A DNA stretch of 24,131 nt. Origin: Spirogloea muscicola. Taxonomy: Eukaryota; Streptophyta; Zygnematophyceae; Spirogloeales; Spirogloeaceae. Below are positions 1 through 24,131 of this stretch, piece by piece. Location of the stretch: contig WELB01000137.1 in NCBI GenBank assembly GCA_009602725.1, positions 104,959 to 129,089 of the forward strand, read 5' to 3'. Every line of letters starts with the position of its first letter. The stretch's first letter is position 1. The position numbers and the translations under genes are program-made. Under the pieces are notes generated by a model that saw only the letters and a program-made list of their open reading frames with translations, was not told the DNA's origin and searched no databases.

Positions 1-1606
1 CCGGGCTTCGCGGCGGCCTTCGCGCCGCGGAGCGCGCTGTCGACCGGCGCGGGCGAGCCGGCGGCAGCGGACCTGCCGGACTGCGCCGCCAGCGACGCCG
101 GTGGTAAACTTCGAGCCTGCCCGACCGACGAAGACCTATAGCTCGATGGTGTTGCAGTGGAACCAGTAGACCATCGTCATTGACGACATACTGAAGGTCC
201 GGTCTCTGCTGTGCCGTCTTCTGCTGCCGTTTGGCAGGTGCTGTGGAGGGCGCTGCCCCTGCGGCAGCTGCCAATGCGACGGCGACGGCGGCGGCGGAGG
301 AGGATCCGCTGGCACCGTCGCCCACCAAGGCGGCGCGAGTCGTGGCGCGGCTGCACAACGTGCCCAAGTACGCGCTGCGGGGCGAGGTGGCGGCGCTGCT
401 GGCCGCGGCGGGCGTGCGGCCCCAGGACTGCGCCACCGTCGTCGACGACCGCTACTCCTTCCGCCACTGGTCAGTGCTGCGCCCGCGCTCCGGGCAGCCG
501 CCGCCAGCGATGCGTTGGCTTTGGGGTGTCATTTGGGCTTCAAGTTTGAGGCATTCGTTTCTGGAAGGCACTCGATGATGGGTCTTGCGCCGCTGCCGGC
601 CCTTTCTAAGGTTTTGGGTTTGGGGACGTGCTAACGACTTTTGCTGCGCCTGCCCCACTGAGCACCCCAGGCGGCTGACGCTGGCGTCGGAGCAGCAGTT
701 CAACAAGGTGCAGGCCATCGTCAACGCCCGCAAGCGCATCGGCACGCGCGTTGTCAAGCTCAGCCTGGTGAGGCTGCCACTCTCGCCGACGCAGTGGGGG
801 CAGTCTGCTGGCAAGAGGCAGCAGGAGGACGTCGAGCCCCTCCTTCACCTCGCCGTGACCGGCTGCTTGCCGGCTGCTTGTGACTGGCAGGAGGACGAGG
901 AGCAGCTGAGGCAGGAGGAGGAGAATCACAAGCATCCCAATCGGATTGCCGACGAGTTCCGCATGCACTCGGTACGAAGCGCGACGCATGCCAACCTGGC
1001 TCTAGGGAGGGGTAGCAAGTCGGTCTGATCGAGCAAAGCGTGGACTCTGCAACTTGTGCACCTGCAGGTGGTGATGGGAAATTTGCCGGACGAGCTCAAC
1101 ACGGACCAAGTGGAGCGTTTCTTTCACGGCTTCCAGATCCCGCCGTCTGGCATCAAGCATGTCAAGCTGTGAGTGATTGCTTGCCCATTGCAAGGCCCGT
1201 CATAAGGGGCTGTCTTGGTAGCATCAGAAGGCGCGGCCAGATTGACTGGTGGCTGTGAGAGGCCAGCCAAAAGGAATGGACAAGGTAGCATCTCACTCGC
1301 TTGCTGCAACGTGCAGCGTCCAGTGTTCCAAGCGAGCAAAAATGGCACTCAGCACGAGCATGAGCAGACGGACTTGCTGACGACATTGTGGAGCTTTCGT
1401 GTTCATCACTGTCTCGCAGTGAGTACAAGGACATTCGAACGCCACTGCACAAGCGCCTGAAAGGAGAGCGGCGCAAGACCATCGACGCCATTCAGCGCCG
1501 GGTGCTCGTGAAGTTCAGAAATGAGCTGGAGGCCATGCGAGCCATCAGGGAGAGGCAGGGGGCATTTCTGGACGAGATGGCTGTGGAGCTCAGTCTGCTG
1601 CAATAG
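1..1606 (+). CDS. Two-RRM RNA-binding protein (5' end missing)
   Basis: Six exons can be joined in phase: <1-100, 238-469, 671-767, 891-971, 1068-1168 and 1420-1606 (stop TAG). All introns are GT..AG. The first exon continues off the left edge, so the start is unseen. The product has an Ala/Pro-rich N-terminal part and then a first RRM-like fold, from VARLHNVPKYALRGEVAALL to a strand ending VVKLSLV. A charged linker (EDEEQLRQEEENHKH) follows, then a second RRM that starts VVMGNLPDELNTDQVERFF and ends RVLVKFRNELEAMRAI..MAVELSLLQ. An intron splits each RRM. RRM proteins bind single-stranded RNA and act in RNA processing, but no motif here identifies the target or compartment. The RNP1 aromatic residues are weak, so RNA binding is inferred from the fold pattern. 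I do not recognise a named orthologue. Confidence 0.72.
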
Positions 1607-2037
1607 CTGCTCATGCTCGCGGGACAACGTGATTGTGGCTGTGGCACTCAACCGCTTTGGGGACACGCAGCTAGATGAGAGCCATCTTTAATTTTATTCT
1701 GCAGCATTTGGCACTTTCATCCATGCTTGGAAGGGGCTCGCCGCTACCTTCTTTGCAGGTGGGCATCTTGAAATCCTTGCTTGCTGAGTCGTGCTCGCTG
1801 ATCTCTATATCTGTGAGGCTCCTTCTTAATCTGATCCAACAGGAGTGCTCTAGCACATGTTGGAGTGAAAGCACAAGCTGACAAACTCGTCGCCTCACAA
1901 TGCCACCAATCTAATGGCGACTGGACATTCACACATGCCCACTGCATCCTGGCAGTTGCGTGCTGGCAGATCCAAGCAGGCCATGCTGGCCCTTGCAGTA
2001 TGTGGGATTGCATGTGTGCGTAGAGGGCACAGGGAGG
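1607..2037. other. Spacer between convergent genes
   Basis: This stretch lies between the stop codons of the RRM gene (+) and the carrier gene (-), so it should hold both 3' UTRs. It is richer in A/T than the flanking exons. The short open frames in it have no coding-like codon use and I see no RNA gene or repeat. Confidence 0.6.
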
Positions 2038-4894
2038 CTAGAGAGAAGGGCTTTTCTCCTGCGGACGTGGAACCAAGTGCTGCAGCTCCACACCAAGCGC
2101 CGTCTCCCGCTGCATGTGGCCCTCTCTGCTGCTTTTGGCGCTGAGCAAGCCCTTCTCAGAGAGTGGGTGATGGCTTTTGGAAGACTCCAGCTCGGGGCTT
2201 GCTCCTAAGCTATACTTGTGCAACAGCTCCAGAGCCAGGAACGTGAAGGCCGAGGCAGGGACAAACCACGTGAGCCTCGCCTGGTAGCCTTTAAGGAGGC
2301 CCCTCATACCCTCCTCTCTTGCAATGGTTGCAAACGCATCCAACCAACCTTTGTACCTGCATAAGTTTTTTTGCAGCAACAAGTCCAAGTCATGGCCCTC
2401 GCACGTTTTCTTGAGATGTCTCCTCACGACTGGAACCATTGAGCCGTGTCTTGCATCTGTTGAAGTAGAGGCTGGGCAACCCGCAAGCTATCAAGGAATT
2501 ATCCACATTAGTCAAAGGGTGCAAAGGATCTCTAGCACTCAAGTAAGATGGATTGCTCAGTACTCACTTGGGTGGAGAACCTTGCACCTGCAATCTCGTC
2601 TTGACAACGTCCAGGGGCGTTGTGACGACGGCGCTGATCCCTGAGTCAAACAAGACAACAGCAACAATTGAAGCCCTCCCTCCAAACAAATTGCACAATG
2701 TGAAGTAGGAGGTCATATGTCCCCAATGGTAGCAGAGCAGCTAGACCAACTACTTATTGCGCCTGCATGTGTAACTTCCAAACGCCATGCATCTTACCTC
2801 CTGCAGTACCGCCAATGACAAATTCCTTCACTAGGCTGGACTTTGAGCCCAGCCAGCGCCCATAACCCTCATTGCGCGCATGGAGGCCTTTAAAGACCTC
2901 ATACAGCATGATCTGAGAGGAACAGAAACACAGACGCGTGAGGCTGCTGAGAAGTGGGAGCCAAGACATGACAACGAAGGTAAGTCAATCAATCAGCAAC
3001 CTGACCTGCTAATCTCAAGTTGTTGTCAAGTATACCTGCAGACCCGCAAATGGCACATCTCGAGCAAGTGTGGAAAAGTAACTGCAGACAGGCCCGCATA
3101 CACACAAGCTCCAGGTCAGATTCAATACTGAGATCTGGATGAACTGTCAAGACTAGGCTGTGAGATTATTTGTTGCCTCTGACTAACACGTAACCTCCTC
3201 TGAGTCGACTCAGAGCCATATCTCCGAAGAAGCCGGCTAGCCACCGTGGTGCCATTGATGCATGGTACGTGAACTCACCCTGCAAATAGGCCATGGATGC
3301 CCTCTTGCCTCGCAATGGTTGTGAAGGCATGCCACGTGCTCCGGTAGTAAGGGTAAGTCTTGTTCAGCGAGGTCAGCGTCGCCTGCTCCCACCCATGGTG
3401 GCTCCCTTGCAGCTGCATCCTCTGCTTCACGACCTCACAGGGCACGAAGACCAACGAGCTCAACGTCTCGCCTGCATAAGCACAAGATTGCCACAATGAG
3501 AACACCTTATGCCAACACGAGACAATGTCTGGGTACCATCAGAAGCACCGGACCAGACTCCACTGGCTCACAAGTCCGGTCAATGAATTGACAAGGAAAG
3601 ATACTACGTGGGAAGACATTGACGAGGGCTAAGGTTAAGTGACCCTTGGGGCGCCAGATATGCACCTGTAGCACCTGCTGCAAAGTGGGACAGCGGCCCC
3701 ATGAGCGGCTGGTGCGCCCCAGCCAGCATCTCCCGGCTTATGTCAATGAAGCCAAAGTAGAAGGCCCCTGTAACAAGAGAGCCCGTCAGGGCAGGCCCAA
3801 CGCCTCGGTATAGACCTGCAAGACATCCGCACCTCTCAGGTCCTCTGCAATATCTGTAGGACGTGCTGGCAAGAGGCCAGCTTCAGACCTCCCACAGCTG
3901 AAAGACAATTAAAACGCTGTGGAGGCCAGATGAATTCATGGCAAGTGACTCACTATAGCAGAGCGATCGTGCATCAAACAGTCTGACAACAAGTCGAGTG
4001 GTCATGGCAGCGGTAGGCGCATTGCATGCAGGATGCTCCGGCTCACGGCAGCTGCAGTCCTGTTACCTCTGATTCCATCAACCGCTTGCACAGCTTTGAA
4101 GGCCTCAAAAAGCTGTCCGCGCGGCTGCACCGATTCGGGAAGGCGACGATGTGAGGCAGTTAGCTTTCAGACGTGCTGACCTGAATAGACTGACTCCTTA
4201 CCATACTGGCACCCAGAGCTTGCATTCATTCCATGATCCAGACTCCATTTCTGGCATGAGCAACCTTGGCGAAGATCGACTTGAACGAGCTTGCCACAGA
4301 CATGGCTTGTTGCCTCTGACTGCGACCATCAGCACCCCGCTGTCGCAACAAGCGAGCTATGCAAAGGAGCGCAAGTCACCAGGCGCGAGCCGCCCGTCTG
4401 GATGCGGGTCTTGAGGGTGTCCACGGGGTGCATGATGGTCTCGCCAAAGGCCCCCGCCAGCGCGCCCCGCCAGAACTCCCCAAAGTCTGGCCCGTCAAGA
4501 CACCATGAGAACGCTGGTAAGACTGAGTTGCCGCAAGGTCCTCACTGCAAGTCGCTCGCTCCATCTAAGCGATGCTCACAAAGCCACCAACGATGATGCA
4601 ACGGACGTCTGAACGACAGCGTTCAGCATTACGCCTGACCGAGACAACTTGGACTTTAAATAAGACATAATGGTCGCAGTCCTCCACCGTGAGGACGTGC
4701 TCAATCCAGGCCGAGCAGTCGAATGTGGTACCATGGGCCAGACCTGGAGGGCTGCCGCCGGCCTTGGGCCCAAGCGGTCCGCTGCTGCGGCGGCAGCCCT
4801 CGTCTGCGGCAATGCGCTCGGCCTTGCCCCGGGCCATGAGCTCCGCCGACGCCGAGCACACCCGCTGCAGCGCCTCGCGGCTCTGCACCTCCAT
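2038..4894 (-). CDS. Mitochondrial carrier family protein, MME1/mcfE/SAM-carrier type
   Basis: Nine exons on the minus strand join in phase: 4894-4744, 4486-4380, 4124-4067, 3815-3666, 3471-3279, 3081-3036, 2912-2798, 2640-2568 and 2356-2038 (stop TAG), giving 403 residues. The three carrier repeats are clear from their P-x-[D/E]-x-x-K signatures: HPVDTLKTR (about 70-78), VPCEVVKQR (165-173) and TPLDVVKTR (281-289). These are followed by second-half motifs such as GLYRGVGPALTGS and GLFAGYFSTLARDVPFAGLQ. The VPCEVVKQRMQLQG and ARDVP..GLQ pattern resembles the yeast Mme1 (magnesium exporter), Dictyostelium mcfE and SAM-carrier branch of SLC25. Substrate is therefore a guess; inner-membrane transport is well supported. 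The start is the first ATG in frame (4894). The frame stays open upstream to about 5000 without another ATG, so an upstream exon is possible. A polar tail of about 60 residues follows the last repeat. Confidence 0.88.
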
Positions 4895-5686
4895 GCCCGC
4901 CCGCCCGCCGCCGCGCTCGGCGGCGGGGCCCTCGGTGGCGAGGCTTTCAGCGAGCACCGGGCGCCATGTACGTCGCGGCTTCGGCCGTTCCTCTCAGTCC
5001 CGTCAGCGATGATAGAGGCCCGTAAGGTGTCCCGTTTCCGCAGGGAAAGCGGCGCGGCGGCGGCGGCGGCGGCGGCAGTCATATCCTGAAGTCGGTGCCG
5101 GTGTTGCCGCCCGGGTGAGCGGCGGCCCCGCGCTGCGGCAGCTCGGCGGGCATCTCGCCGCGCGGGCGCGGACGCGGCGCGGGCGCGTCGAGGCGAAGCG
5201 GCGGCAGGGGGGCGCGCCCTGGGGCCCGCCTGTGGCTCCAGAATGTGGGAGTGTTCTTTGAGCGATGGAGGGCCTCCTGAGTGGCCAAGTAACGTAGGCA
5301 AGCCACGCGGCTTCGCGTTGAGCAGCCCCAGTCTCTGCACTACCGTTGGCCTGATCCGTCTATCGGCTGGCTTTGGCCTCAAAGGAACGGGACAAGGCCT
5401 GAAAGAGACGGCAGCCGGCGCAGCCAGTCGCGAATGGGGAGCCCGCCACTGTGGGCGCGCGTGCCGTGCCGCTGGAGCGAGCCGCCCCGAGTGCCTTTTA
5501 AGACCAGCGGGTATTACCGTCACAATCCTACCTTAGCTACCTTACCAGAAGGAGCTTCACTTCGCAGCCATCGGCCCCCTGTGGGAAATGCTTTCATCAT
5601 TTCCAGCCCACATGCGGTAACGGCCGCCGTCGGGCAGACGGCGCGGCCAACCGCCGTCATCGGGCGGGGGGGTTTCCTTCTCGGGG
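4895..5686. other. GC-rich spacer upstream of the carrier gene, unassigned
   Basis: This is very GC-rich DNA just upstream of the carrier start and probably holds its promoter and 5' UTR. A CGG triplet tract lies at about 5051-5076. A minus-strand open frame at about 5233-5079, after a plausible acceptor (GAGCCACAG), has G/C-rich third positions and ends ..HPGGNTGTDFRI-stop. It could be the last exon of an unrecognised gene. The plus strand is equally open there, so I do not call a gene. A 33-base minus-strand segment bounded by CCCACAG and GTAAGG lies near 5580-5545, also unassigned. Confidence 0.3.
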
Positions 5687-7098
5687 ATGTCGCCTGCAGT
5701 TGCGCCGGGGTGCATGGCCGCCCTCCCGCCACTCGTCCCCGCCGCCAGCGGCCCGGCGCCGGCCGCTGCGACGAGGGCCGCCGCCATAGCCCGCCTGCCG
5801 CGACTCGTCGTGCCTCGCAGCCGTGCCGGTCCGCGCCGCTGCCTGGCCTGGCGCCCCAGCGGCCTTATGGCCGACGTGTCGCGCGTGTGCGGCCTGTGGC
5901 GCCGCCTGGCCGAAGCGGCGTCACGGAGGTGTGCCTGCGGGACCGGCAGCTCTGCGTATGATCCACTGCTGCTGCCCGCGGCAGGGGTGTTCTGGCGCAG
6001 CTCGGCCCCGCGCTGGCCTCCACATCCCCGGCGTTGACGAGCCTTACCTTATTGAACATGTTCGAGGGTACGATCTCCGCCTCATGAGAGCCGTCACGAG
6101 GCTCGCAGAACTGCGAGTCGTAATAGCCACGGTGATTCGCTAGCTCGGGGACCATGATGCTGGCCCTGTGAATATCCGGCGCATGTTTCAAATGTTCCGG
6201 CGCTCTTCAACGTGCTGCGAGCGCTGTGCTTGAACAGAGACGTTTTTCCTTGAGAAAGTTGACCTTCTTCACGGCTCTGGAGAGCCTCTCATTGACCTGC
6301 CCGCGTGCTACTGGTGAGCCCTGCAACCCCCATGCCGCCAACATATACATCTCCATCGGACTGTGATCCTGCTGCCGATGTCAGCTCTGGAGTAGGCCGT
6401 TGCTCAGCGTGGTCACGCATGACTCGTGCCGATGCAGACATCCATGCCATCACTGCCAGCACATCGCAGAACTTGAGCTACTGCGATGTGCCGATCCCAG
6501 CTTGGGGTCGGATTGCCGAGAATTGCAAGCAGCTGTGCAGGTCCGTCGTGAGCACTTGCAGTTGTATGAACGATTGCGCGATCGGCCATCGGCTGCTCCA
6601 TGCTGCAAGACTTCAGCGTTGGAAGATCCAAGGCCGTCCGTAAGAGCTGCTTATGCAGTTCTCAAGGAGTGCCCCGAGCTTAGGAGGCTCGGATGCCAGC
6701 AGAGCTGGAGTGTCCAGCGCTACAGCTGCCGTATGATGGCAGCCATGACCTGTCAATACTCACCTCGTGCGGGCTCTGGAGCGGGTACTCTCATACGTAT
6801 CATCATTTTGGCGTCCTCTTGCTCACGTCTGCTTGAGCTGGATTTGGAGGGCGAAAGCACCAGACTCCACCATCGACAGGCCTCATTCATGAAGTCTTTC
6901 CCCCACACTGGCGCTTGAGAAGTTGACATCAGGAAAAACCACCATCAGCACACCACCATCAGCCTCATTCTTGCTCCAGGCCACCCGATTACAGACCTTG
7001 ACATTATGCACGATGTGGGTGCGATACCGAAGCCTCCTCTCGCGTTTGCTCTTCAGTTCCTGGAGTGCCGTGACTGCAAATTTGAGACAGGGCACGAC
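5687..7098 (+). pseudogene. Decayed F-box / leucine-rich-repeat gene (left arm of inverted duplication)
   Basis: From about 5687 the plus strand reads an Ala/Pro-rich leader and then an F-box. The box is visible only by changing frame: CRDSSCLAAV, then LAPQRLMADVSRVCGLWRRLAEA (in pieces), then GVTEVCLRDRQLCV and a stop at 5959-5961. LRR-like segments follow, for example LAQLGPALASTSPALTSLTLL (about 5993-6055), FTALESLSLTCPRAT (about 6268-6310), AENCKQLCRSVVSTC (about 6518-6560) and ATRLQTLTL (about 6978-7005). They lie in different frames with stops between. The LRR type resembles the Cys-containing repeats of AMN1/FBXL proteins, which are substrate adaptors of SCF ubiquitin ligases. No splice plan repairs the frames, so it is called a pseudogene. 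A heavily intron-broken live gene cannot be fully excluded. Confidence 0.6.
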
Positions 7099-8285
7099 CC
7101 CAGACTCCCAGAAGTCGTGCCCTGGCTCAGTCTTGCAGTCGCGGCAATGCAGGGATTGAGGAGAAAACGGGAGGGGGCTTCGGCATTGCACCGACCATCG
7201 TGCAGGATGTCAAGCTCAGGGACTGTAGTCGGGTGGCCTTGAGCAAGAATGAGGCGAATGATAATGTGCTGATGGTGGTTCCTGATGTTGTCAACTTCAC
7301 TAGCGCCAGTGTGGGAACAGACTTCCCATGGATGAGGCCTGTCGATGTTGGGGTCTGGTCCGCCTTCGACCACCAGATCCAGCTCAAGCAGACCTGAGCA
7401 AGAGCACGCCAAGATGTTCACGGCTATGAGAGCATTCGCTTCAGTAGGAATCCAGAGCCCCACTGAGGTGAGTCGTGACAGGTCATTGCTGCCATTATAT
7501 GGCAGCTGTAGCAACTGGACACTCCAGCTCTGTTGGCATCGAGCCTCCTAAGCTCGGGGCACTACTTGAGAAATGCATAAGCAGCTCTTCTGAACAGCCT
7601 TGCACATCTCCAACGCTGAAGTCTTGCAGCATGGAGCAGCCGATGGCCAAGCGCGCAATCCCGCCATCGGTGTTACTTCTGCAACCGCTTGCGACGACCC
7701 TGCGCGGCTGCTTGCAATTTTTGTCAATCGACTCCAAGCTGGAATCAGTACATCCCTGATAGTAGTGTAGCTCCGGCTGTGCGATGTGCTCGAAGCGGAA
7801 GCGATGGCATGGATGTCTGCATCTGCACGAGTCATGCGTGACCAAGCTGAGCATCCGCCTAATCCAGAGCTGACCTCGGCAGCAGGATCAATGCGTTTGA
7901 GATGTATATAAGGCCGCGTGTTGGCAGCATGGAATTTGCAGGGCCACCAGCAGCCCGCGGGCAGGTCAGTGAGAGGCTCTTTAGAGCCGTGAAGAACGTC
8001 ACCTTTGGCTAAGGATAGACGTCTCTGCCCAAGCTCAGCGCTCGCAACACGTTGGATAGCGCTTGGAGGGTTTGGAACATACGCCGGGTTCACGGGGCCG
8101 GCATCATGGTCGCCGAGCTCGAGTTTGCCAATAACTAGCCTGACTTCGCAGGTTGGCGAGCGTCATGACGGCTCTCAGGAGGTGGAGATCGTTCCCTCGA
8201 AGGTGTTCAAAGAGGAGGGTAGGGCGCGTCATGAGGTCAGCGCTGGGCCGAGCTGCGCACAGAAAGACGCGATAGTAGCATACAA
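5955..8285. repeat. Large imperfect inverted repeat, arms about 1.1 kb, 15-base spacer
   Basis: The left arm (about 5955-7098) and the reverse complement of the right arm (about 7114-8285) align along their length. Near-identical blocks include GGTCACGCATGACTCGTGC (left, about 6411-6429), the block GCAGACATCCATGCCATC just after it, GGCCATCGGCTGCTCCATGC (about 6583-6602) and CAGGGCACGAC at the centre (7088-7098). The arms differ by scattered substitutions and small indels, so the duplication is old. The outer ends are approximate: similarity is strong from GCGCAGCTCGGCCC (5995; partner 8245-8258) inward and fades outside that. The 15-base spacer is 7099-7113. Confidence 0.85.
7114..8285 (-). 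pseudogene. Inverted second copy of the LRR part (right arm)
   Basis: Read on the minus strand, this stretch repeats the left arm in the same order. It includes TFFTALKSLSLTCPRAAGG (near 8000), an uninterrupted LRR run with IDKNCKQPRRVVASGC and TDGGIARLAIGCSMLQDFSV (about 7735-7600), and ATRLQSLSLTSC (near 7230). The run SLESIDKNCKQ..TDGGIARLAIGCSML is a good Cys-type LRR of the AMN1/FBXL kind and keeps its frame better than the left arm does. Stops and shifts elsewhere break it. No F-box is seen beyond 8285, so this copy is partial. It is probably non-functional as a protein. Confidence 0.6.
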
Positions 8286-9482
8286 CGCCCGCTGAGTATC
8301 AGGATATCTTAACGTTCTTGCACGTAACAGCCCCACATGCTGTTGCTGCTCGCTTGAACATGTCCTTCCTTCTGGAAAGCATCTCTCGGCGACTGTCCCT
8401 TCTCGGCGCTTCCTTTCTGTTAACTTTCCAAGGGGTGCTCTTGGAATATGCTAATGGCCGTTAATTTCAAAGAAAATGAGTCACTTCCGCCGTGATACTG
8501 GTGTGGACGGCAAGCGACCACTCCGCTGATCAGTAACAGTTATAGAGATCGCGACATTCACTTCAACAAGTCCTGCTTAAATTTGCCACGTACCCTGGAT
8601 GCTGGACAGCCTGAGAAACTGAATGACTACGGATACACGACGGATACCTTTTTGGCCAAGTTCAATGTCGATGTTGGAGCTCAACATTGAGTCGAGGTCG
8701 ATGCAAAGCCGCAGTGCGGCATGAGTGGCCACCGTTTTGGCAGAAAGTCATTCTCAGTGGCACATTCGAGCCTCGTCCCGAAAGGTATCAAGTTGTAGTG
8801 CTATCATCCATCTACCTAACGGGCCACAACACAGCCACCTCCTCCACAATAATCAAAAGGCCGCAGACGCAAGCCAACACTAGCATGCAGGCCACCACTC
8901 GACCACAATGAGTAACAACTTCGTCCCTGAGCAAGTTGATGAGGTTTTCAAGCCCACTGCTCACCCAATTTTCTTCCCTCTCTTGTGGGTACGTTCCTTC
9001 GCTGATATAGGGGTGTGGGCAGTGGGGGCGGCTGATGATGGGGTTGAATAACTACCATGTGGAGGTTTTTAGTGGCCATCAGTGACAGCTACTTGATTTA
9101 CTGAGTAGTTTGCGAGTTCAGGCCCTTATGGTACTTGTCCGTTCAACTTAGGTTGGCCACTCACCTCCATGCCTCCACCTAGTAAGAGCTTCTCTCCCCC
9201 GCTAGGCAGCCTACTCCTAGCTCAAGGCCTTCATGACATGCAAGCATTGTTGTCCCACCTAGCCGCGCGATTGGCTGGCCTTCACAGCCGCTCTTTGACA
9301 TCAGCAAGCGCCTAAATATGTCAGCTGATGCCAGCTGCAAGCTCTCCACTCAGTCCATCTCAACATTTGATGCGTTGACTATTTATGCATAACTACTCCT
9401 GATCACCGCCAACTTGAGAGAGTTGCGTCTCCTCCTTGCTCCTTCCATACTCCTCCTCAATTGACCTTGCCACGCTACTCGC
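8286..9482. other. Long gene-poor stretch
   Basis: I see no supported gene here. A 74-codon frame at 8687-8911 and an ATG at 8908 have no coding-like codon use or family motif. The sequence is mixed in composition, with stops in all frames. It lies between the inverted repeat and the retroelement-like remnant and may be decayed repeat DNA. Confidence 0.5.
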
Positions 9483-9821
9483 TTGCCCTTAACAGGATTC
9501 AGCGTGACACGACCTCTTCTATTTGACCTGCTTTTACACCTTTGCGCCTGCCATCAGGAAGATTCTCCTGCTCATGCCTTTCTGGCATGCCCCAATGGCC
9601 TATCATCCTCTCCTGGACATGAGGGCAGCTGCCAGAGGGCTGTGTCGTCAGGCCAGATTGACAGTGTCATGCACCGAGCAATTTGGGGCTGTCGACTTGG
9701 CGTAGCCAGAAGTGCTCCTCAGGCTCATGTAGGCTCAGCTGTCTTGCAGCACACACTTTACCTCTGGTCTCCTTGGCCCGCTGATGAGCAAGGACGAATT
9801 GGGCCCATCTGTGAGCAATAA
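9483..9821 (+). mobile_element. Possible retroelement remnant (reverse-transcriptase zinc-binding-like)
   Basis: A 112-codon frame carries CACHQEDSPAHAFLACP at about 9544-9594. The spacing C-x-C..E..H....CP recalls the zinc-binding motif found after the reverse transcriptase of plant non-LTR retrotransposons. Nothing before it is recognisable as reverse transcriptase, and codon use is not gene-like. The match rests on a short pattern and could be chance. Confidence 0.22.
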
Positions 9822-9884
9822 AGTCTTGGGCCCAAGGACATTAAGGTCCTACCCACTCTGCAATAAATCAAATGTTAGACGTAC

Positions 9885-11626
9885 TCAGGTGGCGACCTCC
9901 TTCCCAACAGCATTCAGCACATCCAGCTTGTCATTGTGCGAGTGCGTGAAGCCCCTGCGGCGCTCCTCCTCCACAGTCTCCTGGCTGCGGAATGCAATGA
10001 CCCAAGCCCGCCGCCAGCTGTCCTTGCTGTGAGTGCAGACATTGACCAATCTGATGTAAGAGGATGCGATACAGCTCATAGCAGCCTTTCTATCACAGTA
10101 TCAATGTAATGCTCTGGATGCCTCTTACACCAAAAGTGCAAGCTGCTCTCATGCGTCAGTGACTACTTCGAGGCTATAATACCTCCAGGCACTCAATGGC
10201 CTGACCTGCAGATTTTCATCACATCATTCACTGCTTGGTGCATCATTGGCAGTGAGTACAGATATTTCTGCCAGTGTGAAAAGGCACCGAGGCATTCTCA
10301 TACTTCTGAGGCCATACCTGTTATTTCCTCCGGAGCCATGGAGCAGCCGCTCGTGGTGGACGGTGACATCGCCGGGCTGAATCTCCATGGGCTTGGTTTT
10401 GTCCCCCTCTGTCAGCTTAGCTGCCAGGGTGTGAGACTTGTCCCGATCTCCGTGCAGAGGTCCGTGATGACGCAAGTGCTTCTCCTGATGGGAGCCAGGA
10501 ACGAATTGCAAGCAGCCATTCTCGATGGAGGAGTTGTCGATGGCAAGCCAAAAGGATGCTGTCCTCGTGTCATTGGTTACCGGCCAGTATGCTAGGTCTT
10601 GGTGCCTGGAGAAGGAGTTTAAGTTGCAGGTCGTTACCAAAGCAAAGGAAATAACCCCCTATATCATGCAAACAGGGCATACATTCAAGAGGGATATACT
10701 AGTTCCTTGCTAAAGAGAAGAGAAAGTGCAGATACTGTCAACTTCCTGCAAGTGCTATGCAAGGACTCTTTGAAGTCCATGGCGAGCCCAAACATACCAC
10801 ATGAATACACCATCCGGCCTGTGGGGCGGCTTGGCAAGGAGCTGGTCGTAGTCCGGCACCATATCTGGTCCACACAATTGTTTGGCAATTGATGCGGCAC
10901 GCTTCTCATATAAATTACCCTTCAATTTGGGATTGTATCTGGGAAGGCAATAGATTGCAGTCAAATGCTGTCACTGCTGCTGTCATATGCCTGTCATATA
11001 CGATTCCATCGTCTCATCAACTCTCTGAAGACGACAGAAGCAGAAGCAAATCAGTACGAAAAAAGCAAGGCTGACATTCTGCCCGCACTCTTTGGATATA
11101 GCAATGCACGAATGTGGGTCAGGCAGACAAATAGTACTATCTCAGGTAATGCAAGCTGGGCTGCAAGCATACTTGGAGGGCAGCATGATGTTGATGATGG
11201 AGAACTCCTCGAGGGGCTTGGAATAATCTCCAGACATATCGCAGAAGTCGCGGCCTTCCACATTGATCTCCCTGTTGATGAAGCGCATGTACTCGCGCTC
11301 GAGCACCTGCAGCTCTTCCTCCGAAAGGACGCCCTGTTGTAGAAAGCAGCAATCAACCGCATCAGTCTACATGCACTTATGAATGTAGATTGCAGCAAGG
11401 CCTTGCACTGTCACTGATGCACACGCAAGCGCCGGCACGGTATCCCTGATGGAAGTGACATTCTCTAGAAAAGCAAGCCCGTCGTCATGCAGCCTTGCCT
11501 CGAGCATGGGCAAGGACGAGAGGAGAGACCCACCTGCAGGTGCACATACCCGTCCCGCCGGAAGCCCTCTTTCTCCTCCTCCGTCACGAGGTAGCCGTCC
11601 CCTTGCCGCCGCTCCGCGGCGCCCAT
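9885..11626 (-). CDS. Phytanoyl-CoA dioxygenase (PhyH) family oxygenase
   Basis: Five minus-strand exons join in phase: 11626-11534, 11333-11173, 10938-10798, 10605-10318 and 10026-9885 (stop TGA), giving 274 residues. PhyH proteins are non-haem Fe(II)/2-oxoglutarate oxygenases. The iron-binding triad is visible: H133-x-D135 in MWHQDLAYWP and H221 in ERLLHGSGGN. R233/R234 in SWRRAWVIAFR fits the 2-oxoglutarate arginine, 12-13 residues after the distal His. The block ENGCLQFVPGSHQEKH (about 160-175) and the PGDVTVHHE strand are also typical. The N-terminal YLVTEEEKEGFRRDGYVHLQ is the usual start of the fold. Length matches compact family members. There is no C-terminal SKL, and the N-terminus is not an obvious PTS2, so a peroxisomal site is not supported. 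The substrate cannot be read from sequence. It faces away from the S26 gene across about 0.7 kb. Confidence 0.9.
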
Positions 11627-12343
11627 CGGCACACGGGCGCGCCGCCGCCACGGCTCACGGCGCGCCTCAGCCGCAGCGGCCCAAGTGGGGCTGGCGGCCG
11701 CCGGCTTCCCACGCGCCCTGCAGCCCGTGCTACAGCACGGGCACGCTTCTCGACCCGCCGCCGCCGCCGCCTCGGGGCTCGGGCTCACGCCATGAGGGCC
11801 GGGCGCTGGTGCAGGGCCGGCTGGCTGCCGGGTCGGGGACGACGGGTGGGCTCTTTCTTGCTGACGGTGGGTCAAGCACCGGCACGTCTCCAGATGGTCA
11901 GGCCGTGCCGCTCCCACCAATTGGTAGCCGCACCGGCCCACGGCGCCCGCCTCGTTGGGGAAAGGCGTCACGAGACGGGAGAAGAGCGCTGAAGCACAGC
12001 CACCCAGCGAACACCTCCCGCGCCCCCCCCCCCCGCCGCCGCGTCGCCATCCCCGCCCTCCTCCCCGCGCGCCCGCGCCGCTAGCTGCTTCTGCTGGCCG
12101 CCCCGTAGCGGCGCCGCGGCTTGCGCTCCGTCTCCGGGCGGCGGCGGGAGCCATTCCAGACCGTCTGTCCCGCTGAGCCGGCGGTGCCCTCCCAAAGACG
12201 ATATCAGCGCTGGCGCCGTGTTCGGCTCATGGCAATCTGAGCGCTCATTACAATCTGAGCGCTAGAGCTTCGCCGAGAGCGTAGAAGCTTCTGGGAAAGG
12301 AGGCCGTGCAAGTGGTGCTGGTGCGGAGGCAGGCGGCCTCATC
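11627..12343. promoter_or_regulatory. Divergent promoter region of the PhyH and S26-fold genes
   Basis: These bases separate two start codons that point away from each other, so both promoters and 5' UTRs should lie here. The segment is extremely GC-rich, with CCG runs near 11756-11772 and a run of twelve C at about 12023-12034. A perfect 9-base hairpin (GCCCGTGCT, AC, AGCACGGGC) lies at 11723-11742. Open frames across it are low-complexity and unsupported. No TATA box stands out. Confidence 0.45.
12233..12263. repeat. 13-base direct repeat with AGCGCT cores
   Basis: CAATCTGAGCGCT occurs at 12233-12245 and again at 12251-12263. Each copy contains the palindrome AGCGCT, and a third AGCGCT lies just upstream at about 12206-12211 (TATCAGCGCTGG). 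The pair lies 81 bases before the S26-fold start codon, where a cis-element would be expected. A binding role is inference only. Confidence 0.5.
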
Positions 12344-14096
12344 ATGGCGACGTTCTTCACGTTCCTGCGGTACTTGCGGTTGCGGGCAGAGGCCTCCGTG
12401 CACCTGACCCGCGCCATGATGAAGGTGATGCGAACCTTCTGCAGCTCGTTTACTAAGACATCCGCACTCGAGAGGCAGCCACCTCGAGCTTGTACGCAGT
12501 TGAAGGCTCCCCGACAGTCAATAGTGATGTGGGGTTTGCTTCCTGATTGCCTCCATCCGGAGCTTCACTGGTCGGTAAGCGACTGACTCAGCGCTGTCAC
12601 TGTGCTTGTCGCAGAGCCACGACCACAAGCCAAGCTACTCTCAAACACTGACCAAGATGTACGACAACTTCCGCAACCACCCTCTCACCTTCATGGAGTC
12701 CATCAAGGGCGACGAGATGGCCCCCACCTTCACTGGGAAGCAGGGCGAGACACTCCTCCTCAGATGGCTGCCTCAATTGTTTCCCAGGTCAGCTGACAGC
12801 GAAGCCGCACAAAACCCTCAGACCCCTCAAGGCAATGGCAGCCGGCATCTCAGCTGCCTGACATTCTGCAGCCAGTTTGTTTGTGGTGCCTGAGTTATTG
12901 GGGCATCAATCACTGAGGCTCTGCCAGAAGTTATGCAGAGAAGTAGCACATCAGGTTGCAGCCTCGACATGCTCCTATGCAACAAGACTTCCAATCTGAC
13001 TGCTTGCCGAGCTTCCCTCCGTTTTTGAAGGGTGAACGTTGGGGATGTTGTTTGCATCCTAAACCCTGTGGATGATGCCACCAAGTTGGTGAGGAGAGTA
13101 GCTGCCTTGGAAGGAGACGAAATGGTCTCCAGCAAGGAGCAAGATGAGGCATTCGACATACCAGTTGGCCACTGCTGGCTACTCTGTGACAACGAGCTCA
13201 AGAAGCCTCCGGTGAAGATCCAGGGTGACATTGCTTGTTGTGAAGTGCTGCTGTCGCTTGAATGCATTGCCTGCATGCTCTCTGCTTGCAACACCTTTAG
13301 ATGGACTGCCAGCTAGTGGCCATGTATGCCTGTGATATGAGTAGTATTGTACCTCCAGGCTACAGCAACCTGTGGCTTGTGCCTCTAGGCTAGTTAGTAT
13401 GCAATCACAAGCAGAGCTGGGCTCACTCGTGTAAGACTACGTGTAGAGTCTGCTAGAAGCAGGTTCTGGTTTTCAGAAGATTGTTTTGGGCATTGGCTTA
13501 CTGACATCTTGTTGCTGTATAGGAAGTTGTTGACAGTCGGGTGTTTGGACCAGTTCAACTCAACCGTGTCATTGGAAGAGTGATATACTGCAGTCGCTCT
13601 CTGGTCGACCACGCCCAGGTCGTGAACAGGTATACTCCTTGGAGCTTTGAGAATAACATTGTTGGTTCACATGTACAGATGTTCTTTCAAATCTTCGACG
13701 ATTGGGGAGGTGTAATGGCTTACATGTCTGCTAATCGTTGTGTTCTTACTAGCAAGTTAGAGTATGTCATGAGCAGAGTCGTGAATCTGCGTAGTGTGTA
13801 CTTGTCTGCTAATGTTGGAGGTCCTGTGATTGAGTCTTCATTGGCTGGCCTCAAGATTGGGGCAGTTGCTCAAGCTTCTCTTGTATACATGCATCGAAAA
13901 GTTTCTGTGATTATAGAACTTAAGTATACTCAAATTGACTTTATTCATGGTGCTCAAGGGAGTCTCAATCATCGCTGAAGCCTTATAAGCTTGGTCCTCT
14001 GTGGTCCTCTTATCTAGCCCCGAGTCAATGGAGGAGGATGCCCCTGTGTTGGCTTGTGAGCTCAACATCGAGGATATGAACAAGACGTCCTCATGA
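12344..14096 (+). CDS. S24/S26 signal-peptidase-fold protein lacking the catalytic dyad
   Basis: Five exons join in phase: 12344-12424, 12615-12787, 13031-13211, 13523-13629 and 14018-14096 (stop TGA), giving 206 residues. The family holds type I signal peptidases and the mitochondrial inner-membrane proteases (IMP). The Ser box is present as KGDEMAPTF (58-66), but the catalytic Ser of the usual S-M-x-P is Glu61. The Lys box reads LVRRVAALEGDEM (104-116), with Arg106 where the general-base Lys sits. The later SRVFGP and GRVIYC strands are intact, as is the tail SPESMEEDAPVLACEL. From memory, the plant protein annotated as peptidase S24/S26A/S26B/S26C (Arabidopsis At1g06200 type) has the same GDEMAPT box and a similar acidic tail, which supports the last exon. 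Function is unknown; it is probably not a protease. Confidence 0.85.
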
Positions 14097-15537: not shown

Positions 15538-16106
15538 CTAGCTCGGAGTGTCAAGCCAGGTGCTGAAACCATGGGTGGAAACGGCACCAGTCTCGAAGGC
15601 GCAGGCTGACGTGCGGCCCTTGCGACAAGTCCTATCCAGGCCCATGGCAGCCTGCTGACCTGCTACTCCACCCAACGCGCCCTGCCACATGACCAGCAAA
15701 TGCGGACGCAGCGCAGAGCTTGCGCAGCGGGCCAGGCTCCTGCTCAGGAACACGGCGGCTGCACAGGAGAATGCGAGTGGGACGACCCACCATGGCCGTC
15801 GGTGACAGAAGCTCAGACGGTGAGGCGCGCAGTAGCAGCCAATGGTAGGAAGGACGACAAGGGGCGGACAGGGCGGTCACCGTCGCAGGGGGCCGCGGCC
15901 AGGCCCCTGGTGGGCAGGCCGACGCCGAGGCCGGCCAGGACCACGCCGACGGCGAGGCCGGCGCCGCAACCGGCGCCCACGTAGCCGATGGCGGCGGGCC
16001 CGAAGCCGGGGCCCCAGCCCACGCCGCAGCCGAGGCCCAGGCCGAAGCCCCAGAAGGCCCCCGCCGTGGGGTGCACGGGGTTCCAGGCGCGGTACCGCCG
16101 CAGCAT
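15538..16106 (-). CDS. Cadmium-induced protein AS8-like glycine-rich membrane protein
   Basis: Two minus-strand exons, 16106-15881 and 15758-15538 (stop TAG), join in phase to give 148 residues. The N-terminus MLRRYRAWNPVHPTAGAFWG, then GCGVGWGPGFGP and IGYVGAGCG, is the conserved part of the plant family named after Arabidopsis cadmium-induced protein AS8. Residues about 16-60 form one or two glycine-zipper hydrophobic segments, which fits a small membrane protein. The biochemical role is unknown. The second exon, from AVFLSRSLARC to STWLDTPS, is poorly conserved and rests mainly on phase and the acceptor (CTGTGCAG). Its codon use is less biased, so the C-terminus is less certain than the first exon. 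Confidence 0.75.
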
Positions 16107-16259
16107 GGCGGCTGGGCTTCCCCACGCCGGCAGCGTGGCTGCGTCGCCAGCGGGGTCGGGCCCGCCGGGAGCGAGGCGCTCAGCTCTACACCGCCATGGC
16201 TGGGAAGGCCTGGCGAGCCTCGATGACGAGCGGGCTCCGGCGAGCTCGGCCACGGCGCT

Positions 16260-16530
16260 GCAGCGCGAGCGGCGGCGGCGGCGGCGCAGGCGGGGGAGGG
16301 CCAAGCCGTCCCCTGCCTTCCTCAGCCCGTTTGCCTATCCCTGCCGTTCCCGCCGCCGCCGCCGCCGCCGCCGCCGCTTGCTGACCGACGACTGGCGGCG
16401 GTCCAGGTACGGCGTGAACCTGCCGATCATGTACGCCACCGAGACTGACAGCAAGCAGTTCAAGGAGTTCAACTGCGTCCAGGTGCGCCGCTTCCGCCGC
16501 CGCCGCTGCCGCCGCCGCCGCAGCCGCAGC
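16260..16530. repeat. CGG/CCG triplet tracts around the MGST3 exon
   Basis: Triplet runs occur at about 16269-16290 (CGG), 16350-16378 (CCG) and 16493-16526 (CGC, interrupted). They read as poly-Arg, poly-Ala or poly-Gly in different frames, which creates long false open frames on both strands. They flank the single recognisable MGST3 exon and probably lie in its introns. Confidence 0.75.
16407..16482 (+). CDS. Microsomal glutathione S-transferase 3-like (MAPEG), one exon only
   Basis: A 76-base exon between GGTCCAG and GTGCGCC reads YGVNLPIMYATETDSK, then QFKEFNCVQ. This matches the MAPEG/MGST3 segment after the first membrane helix, typically RKKYxVxYPxMY..FNCIQ. In this family the next residues are RAHQN/RGHQN with the glutathione-site residues. 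MGST3 proteins are trimeric membrane enzymes with glutathione transferase or peroxidase activity. The first exon (first helix) was not found upstream, and the later exons are missing: the intron runs into the N at 16610, after which a different gene is in frame. This is therefore a fragment, either broken by assembly or a pseudogene remnant. Confidence 0.6.
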
Positions 16531-16609
16531 TGCCACCACAGTCGCATCTTGGCGCCGCCCGTCACAAGCCTGGTTCTGCCGTGGTTGTCGCTCTTTCTGA
16601 TCCGGCCCC

Positions 16610-16610
16610 N
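16610..16610. other. Ambiguous base N, probable assembly junction
   Basis: The only N in the window lies inside a CCCC-N-CGCCGCCG tract. To its left is an intron of a truncated MGST3 gene; to its right an Rxt3-domain coding frame is already open. A lost or collapsed segment at this point would explain both truncations. Confidence 0.55.
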
Positions 16611-19600
16611 CGCCGCCGCCGCGGACAGAGCGCAGCAGCCCCTTCGGGCAGCTCGCGGCGCTGTCCAGCAAGTGGGCGCCGGCGCCCCCGCGGCAGCCCG
16701 CGGAGGCCGCCGCCGCCGACGCCGAGGCTCTCGCGAGAGCGCCAGGCGGCGACGGAAGCAGAGCGGCAGCTGACGAGACTGCGGCCAAGGCGACTGACGA
16801 GGCGCCGCATGGAGGGGACGCCATTGCCGTGCCCGGCGGCGGTGGCGGCGGCGGCAAGGTGCCGAGCGGCGACAAGGAGACGGCAGTGGTGCCGCGTGTG
16901 GAGGAGAACGGGCCGGGGCCTTCTGAGCGCCGTGAGGCCGCCGCGGCGGCGGAGGCGGCGAGGCTGGGCCACGGCGGGGACGGAGGCGGCGGGCCGCGCG
17001 CTTGGGCGCAGGGCAAGGACGCCGAGGACGAGGCCTCGGAGCCCACGGCCAAGGAGGTGGCGATGGAGGACCGCGCGCTGACGGAGGCGCCGGCCAGTGG
17101 CGGCGCCGAGCCCGGCGCGAGGGCGGCGGAGCGGTCCAAGCGCATCCTCCGGCCACGGGCGGCGGGCGCCGGGCCGCCCGACCCACGGCCCAAGCGCGGC
17201 AAGGACGCCGATGGGTCAGTGCACCAACTCGAGGCCTCACCCATCACGTCGATGGAGCGATTGTGTTGCTTGAGATCTGTGATGTTGCAAGTTATGCAGC
17301 TGCTGAAGTTGGCATGATGGAATTCACTTCTGCATGCTGCTGCGCAACGGGTGTAGCCCGCCTCCTTGCGCGAGCGGCGCTGGCCATCCACTCACTGTGA
17401 GGCGCTTGTCGCCGACTGTCTTGCAGGACTGCAGGTAAGGGGGCCGCCAGCCTCCGCTGCCCGCCCAGGAGAGCTGCTGATCTATGCCGCACTCTCTCTT
17501 ACCGCTGCTTCCAACATGCGCCTCTTCTGGCGCGTCTACCCTGCTCGTCGCTCGGACTTGTGATATGCAGCAATAATCTCCTCCCAGGATGCGATACATA
17601 TCATGAGGAAGCGCAAGCAAGCGCTCTGAACCCCATCTCGAAGCCACTTACAGGGGTTATGGATATGACATTCCCGTTGCCACAGGAGCACGGGGGGAGC
17701 CAACAGTGCTGCAGTACTGTGAGGGCGAGGGCATGCCGGAGCTCGTGAAGCTGCTCCGCGACTCCAAGGGGCTTGACCTTGCGGCAGGTGCAGAGGACAA
17801 GGCCACCTTGGTGGAGATTCGTATCGCTCCAGAGGCGCTCACGACTGCCAACCGTCAGGTAGGTGCCGGTCTGATGTGACGAATCAAAGCAAGCCGTGTT
17901 TCCTCCTTCCAATACTAGCCGGGCGTTCACGCTATTGCACAAAGGACTGACAGGAGTTGCTCATGATAGCACTTCCTTGCAATCATGAGCCTCACAACTC
18001 TCGTCTCTTGTATCTAACAGCTTTGCAAGCGGTGTATGACTGAAGCAGGTCAGGGCGAGGCAGCTCTGGGGAACTGAGCTGTACACTGACGACTCTGACA
18101 TTGTAGCAGGTAATGCTGGCCTTGGCTGCCAGACTGTAGGGGTCTCCTGCTTAGTATCACTGTGGCATGAACTCGTATGCTGTGTAACACACGAGTTGAT
18201 CACTGGTGGCAGTCTTGATGCACACGGGCTACTACACGCCAGCCGCTTCCGCTCCCCCACCTTCAGTGGCAGAGCTTCGAGCTGTTGTACGAGCATGTCC
18301 ATCGCAAGAATGTAACACACCCATAGCCTACACTTGTGCCTCTCCTCCTCGGGACGTGCCCACGAACCTGTCATGAGCTCTCTGCAGACTGACATAGCGA
18401 GCAGGCAGTGACTGCTTGCAGTGCTGACTGCTTATTGCATACCTCAGGTCTTGTGGGCAGCTGTTAGCCCAGCCGACAATCTGCATCGCGTCTGCATCAT
18501 CCTGTCTGTGATATGTCATGGAGCATCGACTCTGGGCTGGTGACTGAATAGAAGTAGTGCTTTCCTTGCTCTTACTTATAACTATGGAGTGCAGATTACA
18601 AGTCGAGCGCCAGAAACGGCATTCGCTCTCGAGCCTGGGGAGCTGCCAAGGGCGGATGCAGCTTCAGCGTAGAGGCCTGCCGCATCATCAAGGCATGTGC
18701 CGCAGGATGCAACCCTCTTAGAGCTCAACAGAGTCACTCTGCCGGCCATTTCTGACCTTCACAGTGGAGCACCTTGGCAGCAGGCTGGAGGTGGCAGCAT
18801 TGAGATGAAAGCCTCTCCAACGAGGCTGCCTGCAGTGGCTCCAACTGTGGCCCCGATGGGGGTGGAGCGCACCGTGACAACGCGGGCAGCCTCTCAGGTA
18901 TGCCTCGCACGACCTGTCATTGCATCACCAGCCATGCAAGTGTTGCTCATTGTGCCTGTGAAATTGAGCCTTCCTTACACTCCTCTGTGGCCTCTTTTAA
19001 TCTGCAGAGTGCCCACCGCCGGGAGAGGTTTGTGCAGGAGGTGACTGTGCAGTACAACCTGTGCAATGAGCCATGGTAAGTATGCAAGCTTGCCTTGATT
19101 CCCTGCATGGGCAATCATCTAGCTGGGCAGCTATTCTCCAATTTCCACATCAGTCGACTTGCCCAGCGATTAAGTGCGCTATCGCGCTGGCATGCATGAC
19201 AGGCTTAAGTACAGCTTGAGCGTGGTGGCTGACCGTGGCCTGAAACAGTCCCAGTTCACATCTGCACGACTGAAGAAAGGGGATGTGCTTTATCTAGAAA
19301 GTCACTGTACTCGGTGGGTGAAGCTTTGTACTTAACGCTTTGCCAAGAACGCATCAGTTGCCAGGCAGATTGGATTGAGTTGACCACCAAGGCAGGCCTG
19401 GAGGCCTGTTTGATGAATAGGTGTACTGTACTATTTGTTTCAAGGTCAATTGACAGGTCATATTGTGGTGAACAGGTATGAGCTGGCACATCAATGCGAG
19501 TCCTCAGTCTGTGAGGATGCCTCAGGTGGTGTGCTACCAGCAATTCCGCTGAGGCGCGACAAGAATGGCGATGCAGTGAAGCCAGGAGACATTGACAAGG

Positions 19601-20178
19601 GCGCACACAAAGACGAGAAGGAAGCCACGGTTAAGCCCGGACATGCTGGTTTGAACGTTGTTCCAGACAGGAGCTTGCAGGACAGGGGAAAGCTTTGCGA
19701 TAGCAAGGACATGGAGGAAGCACCTCCCTCCACTTCGGCAGAACCGGAGAAGGCTGAGGAAGCAATTGAGAGATTCAGATTCTCAGAGTGTTTGCGACCT
19801 CTACCGCTGTTGACAATGCGGGCCAAGGGGACCCCGCTACCACCTGATGCTGTAAAGGTGACACCTTTGACTACATGATTCACAATTTGTAGCCTCTCAT
19901 GGCAAAGAGCTATGAAGATTGCACCTGCTGGCAAAGGAATGCTTACATTGGCATAAGCATGTAGCTGAGTAGCTTGCAACTTGGTGAGCTGCAGTCTGCA
20001 CGACTTTTTGCTGCTTGGCTGATGGTCAGCCCCACTCTGCAAGCAGGTGTTGGAGGAGGGGTTGCGATGGGAGGAGCTGCAGTGGGCACCAGCCGGCGTT
20101 TGGGTGCGAAACAAAAAAATTCCGCTGGCAAGGGCCCAATTCTTCCCTCGTCACCACAGTCAAAGCGTCCCGACTTAA
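16611..20178 (+). CDS. Rxt3-domain chromatin protein (Sin3/Rpd3 histone deacetylase complex type), 5' end missing
   Basis: Exons that join: <16611-17214, 17654-17858, 18049-18109, 18213-18311, 18595-18692, about 18706-18897, 19008-19075, 19203-19313, 19476-19857 and 20047-20178 (stop TAA). The N-terminal exon is acidic and Ala/Gly-rich with a basic patch (RSKRILRPR). The Rxt3 domain follows, with VRARQLWGTELYTDDSDIVA, VLMHTGYYTP, YKSSARNGIRSRAWG and VTVQYNLCNEPWLKYSLSVV. In yeast, Rxt3 is a subunit of the Rpd3L deacetylase complex, and the LWGTxxYTDDSDxVA block is its hallmark. A polar region of about 130 residues then leads to the last exon, with GLRWEELQWAPAGVWV. The frame jumps at 18693-18705: removing those 13 bases restores phase. 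The start lies before the N at 16610 and is not seen. Confidence 0.78.
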
Positions 20179-20560
20179 AGGCTTCAAGCGGCAATCGAAA
20201 TGCAAAGAGCCCGGCCTGTTTCCCTCCAGTAGCTTGTGAGAGAGGCCATTGCAAAGTGCAGTGGTGTAGGCTCCACTTGTTGCTCCAGCGCTTTTTGCCT
20301 CTTTGAAGCTTGTCCATTCTTTTCGGGCTGGTTGTTCACAGCCCTCGCCCCCTTATGGGAGAGCCACTTCTCTTTCTCCTCTAAGATGAGGTACTACCTC
20401 CTTGTCAAATTAACATCTCAGAATCACAAGCAGGAGAAGAGAATGACATTGATGGCAGGCACTTGAGGTGGAGGACAATTAGGGGCAATTTGACAGGGCA
20501 TCTGCCCACTGGGGCACCTGCCTTGCTTTCCAAAAGCTTTCAATAATGAATAAATCTGAT
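20179..20560. other. Spacer between convergent genes
   Basis: The stop codons of the Rxt3-domain gene (+) and the EGY2-like gene (-) bracket this stretch, which should hold both 3' UTRs. Nothing else is recognisable in it. Confidence 0.6.
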
Positions 20561-23500: not shown

Positions 23501-24131
23501 GGAGGGCTGGAAGGCGCAGCGTCCAGCCGCGCGTATCATCCACGTATCTCAGGCGTGGCGGGCATCATACGTGTACAAGCGGCCGAGGAGTGGCTGGCTC
23601 TTGACTGAAGTGGCTGAATTGAAGCCAGGCAGGGGCACCAACGGTGAGCAGTAGCACACCTTTTCGGGCCCCAGGAGCTCCATGACCGAGAAGGAGTCGT
23701 ACTGCACGGGCGCGGCAGCCGGCGCGTCGCCGCCGCCGGCCTTGCCGGCGCCGCCCGGGCCGGCAGCGGCGTTGCCGGCGGCATCCTCCCGGCTGGGCTC
23801 CTCTGTGGCAGTGGTGGCCGTCGTGGACTTGCTGCTGCCGTCGCCCTTGTCCCCCTCGCCGCCATCCTCGCCTGCGCCGGCCCCGCGTGCTGCGAAGCTG
23901 AGGCACTGCAGGAGGCCCGGCAGGCAATGCCAGCGGACGTTGGGGAGCCGCTGACCGCCAGCTCACCCGAGGAGCAGCGCACGCGGGAGTGGGGCCGCGG
24001 CAGCCGGGCGGGGCGTAGGGCGCTGCTGCGCCAGGCGGAGGAGAGGGGCTGGCGGGAGGCGCAGCTGAGCTGCGCGGCGCCCGCCAGCGGCAGGCGAGGT
24101 GCGAAGCCGGTGCGCCGCTGCCGCGGCGCGG
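20561..24131 (-). CDS. EGY2: EGY2-like chloroplast site-2 metalloprotease (M50), N-terminus off edge
   Basis: Twelve minus-strand exons join in phase: 24131-23967, 23871-23660, 23317-23221, 23064-22784, 22466-22320, 22167-22066, 21955-21744, 21597-21547, 21388-21319, 21172-21104, 20941-20891 and 20722-20561 (stop TAA). That is about 539 codons. The first exon is Arg/Ser/Ala-rich like a chloroplast transit peptide, followed by an acidic Gly/Ala-rich stretch. The EGY2-type soluble domain follows (SFSVMELLGPEK, FGYTSFWVTGQEPFGD, GPRVSFLLLRKEVSQ), then several membrane helices. The zinc motif HELGH is intact, as are PYLIPNITLGSFGAITQ, MHAATVAIHPLVIAGW and LLPVGCLDGGR (third zinc ligand Asp). The C-terminus LNDVTEVGK..LTLLPIWEGLAEDLGIGL also matches EGY2. 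EGY proteins cleave within thylakoid membranes; EGY2 needs no ATP. The start codon lies beyond the right edge. Confidence 0.92.

Follow-up and report, generated by a model that had tools for sequence, protein, structure and literature searches.

Inverted duplication of an F-box/LRR-like pseudogene in Spirogloea muscicola: origin, decay and hairpin potential

In the genome of the streptophyte alga Spirogloea muscicola, two copies of one gene segment face each other across a few bases, and the question this locus raises is whether such a palindrome is a working source of small RNAs or the decaying product of a single rearrangement. The window analysed here is the whole stretch of 24,131 nt from which the locus was taken (C137:104959-129089), and the genome searched comprised 153.1 Mb in 471 contigs. 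The reading that we prefer, with a probability of roughly 0.65, is that of an old palindromic pseudogene, which probably arose in a single event of fold-back template switching and is decaying close to neutrally. That reading makes no prediction about transcription of the locus.

The palindrome and what its arms encode

Self-alignment of the window revealed one large inverted repeat, with 5990-8264 matching its own reverse complement at 77.4 % identity over 2,365 columns that include 180 gap positions. Apart from this repeat, an E value of 1e-5 yielded just two short self-matching pairs, one of 35 columns and one of 30. The innermost arm segments (7036-7098 and 7114-7176) are 15 nt apart. Hence, the original prediction was right that two LRR-coding arms lie head-on with 15 bases between them and that they differ by both substitutions and indels, and two copies of one gene segment in this arrangement, separated by a short spacer, identify an inverted gene duplication. 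The duplicated unit is larger than the palindrome, as homology to dispersed copies extends from approximately 5608-5674 to approximately 8350-8561. The features are as follows.

5608..5989, plus strand: left flank of the duplicated unit, in which the left copy has its upstream region and where its F-box-like coding part begins (based on the homology limit of 5608-5674 in dispersed copies and on alignment to the ORF at 750-1385 of L005)
5990..7098, plus strand: left arm, disabled LRR-coding copy reading inward, from the self-alignment
6265..6305, plus strand: left half of a perfect helix predicted to form with 7956-7996, at 41 bp the longest (G-U pairs allowed)
6584..6623, plus strand: left half of a perfect helix predicted to form with 7609-7648, at 40 bp the second longest (G-U pairs allowed)
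7099..7113, no strand: spacer at the palindrome centre, 15 nt, compared with single-arm relatives at the turn
7114..8264, minus strand: right arm, disabled LRR-coding copy reading inward, from the self-alignment
8265..8561, no strand: right flank of the duplicated unit, common to dispersed copies (to approximately 8350 in group C and 8561 in group B) and without homology to the left flank

The F-box/LRR name comes from relatives, all of whose best Pfam matches score below the curated cut-offs, rather than from ORFs of the arms, three of which were tested and gave no Pfam match at an E value of 1. The best matches in the relatives were LRR_At5g56370 (23.2 bits, cut-off 27), LRR_14 (19.2 bits, cut-off 40) and F-box-like (14.3 bits, cut-off 24.3). 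One relative, L010, has an open frame of 426 aa with a weak LRR match, and the frame upstream of it shows weak matches to both LRR and F-box-like. The L010 protein matched the right arm of the window piecewise and in differing frames. Compared with the L010 frame, the left arm of the window has nine frameshifting indels and one in-frame stop, the right arm has six and one, and all 14 arms of the seven copies compared have 3-11 frameshifting indels and 0-4 stops each, counts which introns or alignment error may inflate. The arm alignment omitted C181 (L009, scrambled) and the fragments L013 and L014. Judged by their frames, all 14 arms derive from the LRR part of an F-box/LRR-like gene and have been disabled, and two of the single-arm copies, with five (C95s) and four (C123s) frameshifts, are probably pseudogenes too. 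The locus had been described as an F-box/LRR pseudogene, and this holds for the LRR part; the F-box-like part appears, from alignment to L005, to lie outside the arms, to the left of the palindrome at approximately 5714-5989.

A genome search with the L010 protein gave at least 100 matches, several to a single gene, and 98 of the 168 first-look candidates were scored. Among open members of this F-box/LRR-like family, dN/dS ranges from 0.30 to 0.81 over 13 pairs (L020-L039 and L010), and the family evolves fast. Substitution between homoeologous arms is almost equal across the three codon positions. Codon-position rates were dropped as proof of neutrality, because they are fairly even in intact family members too, although frames of approximately 400 codons are kept open there. 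A known structured RNA was likewise rejected, as there were no Rfam matches in the window at gathering thresholds.

Copies, age and turn point

Searching the genome with window positions 5955-8285 revealed two further near-complete palindromes, at C223:32191-34554 (82 %) and C16:983498-985855 (80 %). Their surroundings also correspond. Window 2500-5960 matched C16 over query positions 11-3182 (84 %) and C223 over 23-2884 (86 %), beyond a gap of approximately 3.6 kb, and window 8280-12500 gave piecewise matches on both (77-89 %). Further out, window 16000-24131 matched C16 at 90 % over query positions 622-8114 and C223 over 1-376 only. The whole window region is thus found in three collinear copies sharing approximately 83-90 % identity, and on the basis of the collinear flanks we call them homoeologous segments (group A), all three of which still carry the palindrome. 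Argonaute, tandem RNase III and GRAS loci likewise occur in threes, several of the GRAS-domain genes found forming sets on three contigs; among green plants, GRAS genes are known as a mark of the Zygnematophyceae and land plants. From this threefold occurrence of the window region and of all three gene classes, we infer that the genome was triplicated by polyploidy.

The dispersed palindromic copies have only the unit from approximately 5608-5674 to 8350-8561 in common with the window. They comprise four shortened palindromes and one that is scrambled. Group B includes C103 and C51, in which the centre is missing, and the scrambled C181 (L009). Group C (C16:688-690k and C95:19.5-20.9k) lacks roughly window 6646-7597 and shares its outer right junction with group A. 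Three relatives have no inverted copy, namely L005 (C95:33-35k), L006 (C123:174-176k) and L010 (C101:275-278k).

A tree was built from 19 rows, corresponding to the 14 arms, three single-arm rows and two rows from other palindromic relatives. All seven left arms formed one clade (support 90/97, below the level that the program stars) and five right arms formed another, which is starred (97/98). Outside this right-arm clade, the remaining two right arms, both from group C, paired with each other (100/100). As the left arms group together and most of the right arms do likewise, the simplest reading is that the palindrome probably formed once and was then copied, before the homoeologues diverged. 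With events in that order, it would either predate the separation of the three segments or coincide with it.

Read in the sense of the gene, the right arm at the window turn consists of a 9-base word, a 15-base loop and then the complement of the word, perfectly matched. The single-arm relative L006 has at this position the same 9-base word, a 17-base loop and an inverted match at 8 of 9 bases, a native quasi-palindrome. In the other two relatives scanned, L005 has a weaker inverted match that overlaps the turn (loop 25) and L010 has none at the turn. The chance of such an inverted partner in upstream family sequence is approximately 0.005 (214 of 40,000 draws). The position of the turn at a native quasi-palindrome that is kept in L006, together with the perfect match seen in the window, which such a mechanism would leave, suggests that fold-back template switching made the palindrome. 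Human fold-back inverted duplications have short inverted homology at the junction of spacer and inverted copy, though the cases described are large rearrangements of the germline whose spacers measure 766-70,466 bp (PMC3907307), compared with 1.1 kb and 15 nt here.

The course of events may have been as follows. During copying of an ancestral F-box/LRR-like gene, the new strand would have folded back at the short native inverted repeat in an LRR exon and approximately 1.1 kb would have been re-copied in the opposite direction, a step for which the evidence is mainly the sequence of one relative. The palindrome, with approximately 0.1-0.4 kb on each side, is present elsewhere and was presumably copied there at the DNA level, and it would have been inherited by the homoeologous segments when polyploidy triplicated the genome. 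Later, the arms lost their reading frames and those of the window's group diverged independently, the centre was lost in groups B and C, and the arms of one group came to have patches near the centre in common. Were transcription from the retained left flank to persist at any copy, its RNA would be a Dicer substrate; selection for this is not visible.

Hairpin potential and pairing of the arms

The original prediction also held that a transcript would fold into one long imperfect hairpin, and the predicted fold agrees with this. For the sense strand of 5955-8285, the predicted MFE is -1757 kcal/mol, compared with -784 to -1021 for six window stretches of equal length, and of 984 base pairs predicted, 967 are formed between the arms and in register. 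There are 11 predicted helices of at least 19 bp, including two of 40 and 41 bp. The antisense strand gave -1699 and seven such helices.

Machinery for processing small RNAs is, from domain matches, encoded in the genome. Piwi and PAZ matches identify Argonaute at four loci, three of them alike in layout, and tandem RNase III was found at three loci, each with two matches approximately 1.3-1.5 kb apart. This agrees with the set reported for S. muscicola, namely three copies of DCL2/3/4 type, in line with genome triplication, and three AGO1/5/10 genes plus one of AGO2/3/7 type (PMC7994812). A search for RNA-dependent RNA polymerase gave no matches in the genome, and none in the control genomes either, so that this negative carries no information.

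Near-matches to possible targets are also present. Within two mismatches, 50 of 1,097 21-mers from the left arm and 36 of 1,138 from the right arm matched 21 family regions, and none matched 65 kb of other genome, a control consisting of random loci from which the seven that were all or partly N had been left out. Open F-box/LRR-like paralogues are therefore potential targets of any small RNAs derived from the arms. Homology is enough to produce such near-matches, which fall short of showing that live paralogues are targeted.

If pairing were under selection, the two arms of a copy should match each other better than they match the arm of a homoeologue. Each left arm was therefore compared with its own right arm and with that of a homoeologue, using block-bootstrap intervals. 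For group A the own-minus-swapped identity is 0.0041 (-0.0017 to 0.0097); for group C the value is -0.0031 (-0.0106 to 0.0055). In group B it is 0.025 (0.0049 to 0.0460), own arms being closer. Pooled values are 0.0091 (0.0014 to 0.0163) for A and B, and 0.0068 (-0.0027 to 0.0168) for A and C. Own arms share 11 unique states in C103, all of them in the inner alignment, and four in C51; for swapped pairs the number was almost always 0-2 and at most five. We read these as sequence exchange between the arms; compensation between them is a possible alternative.

In a coarser, pooled window count over the seven copies, own pairing reached 2206 against 1523-1858 in the listed values of 40 swaps and ranked seventh of 5,040 permutations, a result to be read knowing that swaps between groups pit arms of unequal length against each other. 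Within groups, own and swapped values were 363 (mean) and 349 in group A, where own pairing ranked second of six, 374 and 296 in group B, and 184 and 202 in group C. Of the 24-column blocks in the arms, the most conserved, near 6449-6465, is marginal: it exceeds the 95 % limit of shuffled maxima and falls short of the 99 % limit, which no short conserved block in the arms surpassed. The group to which the window belongs thus gives no sign of selection for pairing, and group B allows a little scope for it. Of the proposed inverted-duplication hairpin-RNA locus, then, the inverted duplication of an F-box/LRR-like pseudogene stands, and a maintained RNA role is left unsupported, own arms having no advantage in group A.

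Weighing the readings, and other palindromes in the family

The preferred reading of neutral decay draws on the own-arm identity of groups A and C, which is no better than that of swapped arms, on the frameshifts in all 14 arms and on the central deletions of groups B and C. Against it stand group B and the pooled A and B value, both favouring own arms, and the rank in the pooled window count. The position of the group-C right arms counts against the single origin, and the turn-point explanation is weakened by an exact quasi-palindrome in only one of the three relatives scanned. A working hairpin-siRNA or young miRNA-like locus, in which read-through from the left flank, Dicer-like cutting and repression of F-box/LRR-like paralogues would operate and imperfect pairing would mark an ageing yet active locus, is the chief rival, and we consider it unlikely while giving it real weight. 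The predicted fold with its 11 long helices, the Argonaute and tandem RNase III loci, the arm 21-mers close to family regions and to none of the 65 kb of other genome, the persistence of the palindrome in all three group-A segments and the closer own arms of group B all speak for it. It is opposed by groups A and C, in which own arms have no advantage, and by the lack of any short block past the 99 % shuffled limit, and its near-matches to paralogues are expected from homology alone. More speculative still is a version in which a hairpin-RNA locus that predates the triplication has been kept in three homoeologues, its small RNAs restraining a fast-evolving, palindrome-prone family.

Palindromic units at dispersed loci could instead have been spread by the transposition of a non-autonomous fold-back mobile element carrying a captured gene fragment. 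We find this very improbable because the copies are few and the ends of the unit vary by group (left 5608 or 5674, right approximately 8350 or 8561), so that the constant termini of fold-back or MITE-like elements are missing between copies. Terminal repeats are not evident either, nor are target-site duplications at up to five loci per side, with approximate boundaries read by eye. An assembly artefact in the second arm, one of the outcomes that the original prediction had named as fatal to it, is a general risk with palindromes and deserves practically no credence here, being excluded by the palindromes with mutations of their own on C223, C16 and the dispersed loci; the arms moreover differ by approximately 20 % with 180 gap positions.

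Pseudogenes are reportedly a possible source of small RNAs against their parent genes in rice, a source similar to the one considered here for a locus read as DNA only. Inverted duplication is a proposed origin of plant MIRNA genes, and as in that model a pseudogene has been duplicated in inverted orientation with arms homologous to a live gene family; unlike the MIRNA loci described there, this one has 1.1-kb arms, is known from DNA alone and does not visibly maintain pairing in the window's group (PMC3237417). The locus thus resembles the raw material of the model, with a hairpin potential that is predicted. Chlamydomonas miRNA precursors are fairly long hairpins, imprecisely processed, and the likeness extends to a green alga with Dicer and Argonaute, though Chlamydomonas belongs to a separate green lineage and its miRNAs were defined by sequencing AGO3-bound small RNAs (PMC5511227). 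Among the titles listed in open-licence literature on Spirogloea, on hairpin loci of algae and on F-box genes duplicated in inverted orientation, none concerned this locus.

A silent locus would be a dated record of a gene palindrome forming, spreading and decaying in an alga whose genome is triplicated, and its turn point may carry a scar. An active one would place a hairpin locus of inverted-duplication origin in the closest algal lineage to land plants, and its diverged homoeologues and dispersed copies would allow a direct test of the working lifetime of such loci. Were the hairpin-RNA reading true, the inverted-duplication route to silencing loci would operate just outside the land plants.

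Two further palindromes in the family have different turn points, L011 (C219, 1748-3171; arms approximately 712 bp, 81 %) and L012 (C123:269k, 1607-2877; arms approximately 540 bp, spacer 184, 94 %). Together with the event behind groups A, B and C, they suggest three palindrome origins, though as the two are relatives a shared origin with later reshaping is possible. Tight F-box/LRR palindromes with arms of at least 500 bp occur in nine of 33 family regions (window, L001-L012 and L020-L039), a sample biased by the use of the palindrome itself as the query for L001-L012, and in none of the 20 regions chosen by protein search (L020-L039). In L029, two family genes that are 67.5 % alike face each other as an inverted pair across 589 bp (448-5025), and L034 includes a palindrome with 232-bp arms (2662-3126). 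Among 20 random 5-kb stretches (72.7 kb readable, four being all N and three partly N), no inverted repeat with arms of 100 bp or more was found. These figures suggest that palindromes are enriched in the F-box/LRR family. Small palindromes with arms of approximately 164-298 bp also lie near family loci (L015 6729-7324, L017 9209-9646 and L007 3270-3598); in an all-against-all comparison, neither these nor that of L034 matched the F-box/LRR palindromes.

Elsewhere in the window, exons above the Pfam cut-off were found on the minus strand for a mitochondrial carrier-like protein (2038-2439) and a phytanoyl-CoA dioxygenase-like protein (10224-10640). A stretch of 266 bp at 16345-16610 (query positions 345-610) has a 100 % match on C31 and falls in the break of the C16 homoeologue, and is a probable recent insertion. 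A repeat of approximately 90 bp, at approximately 20284-20378, has matches of 83-90 % on dozens of further contigs.
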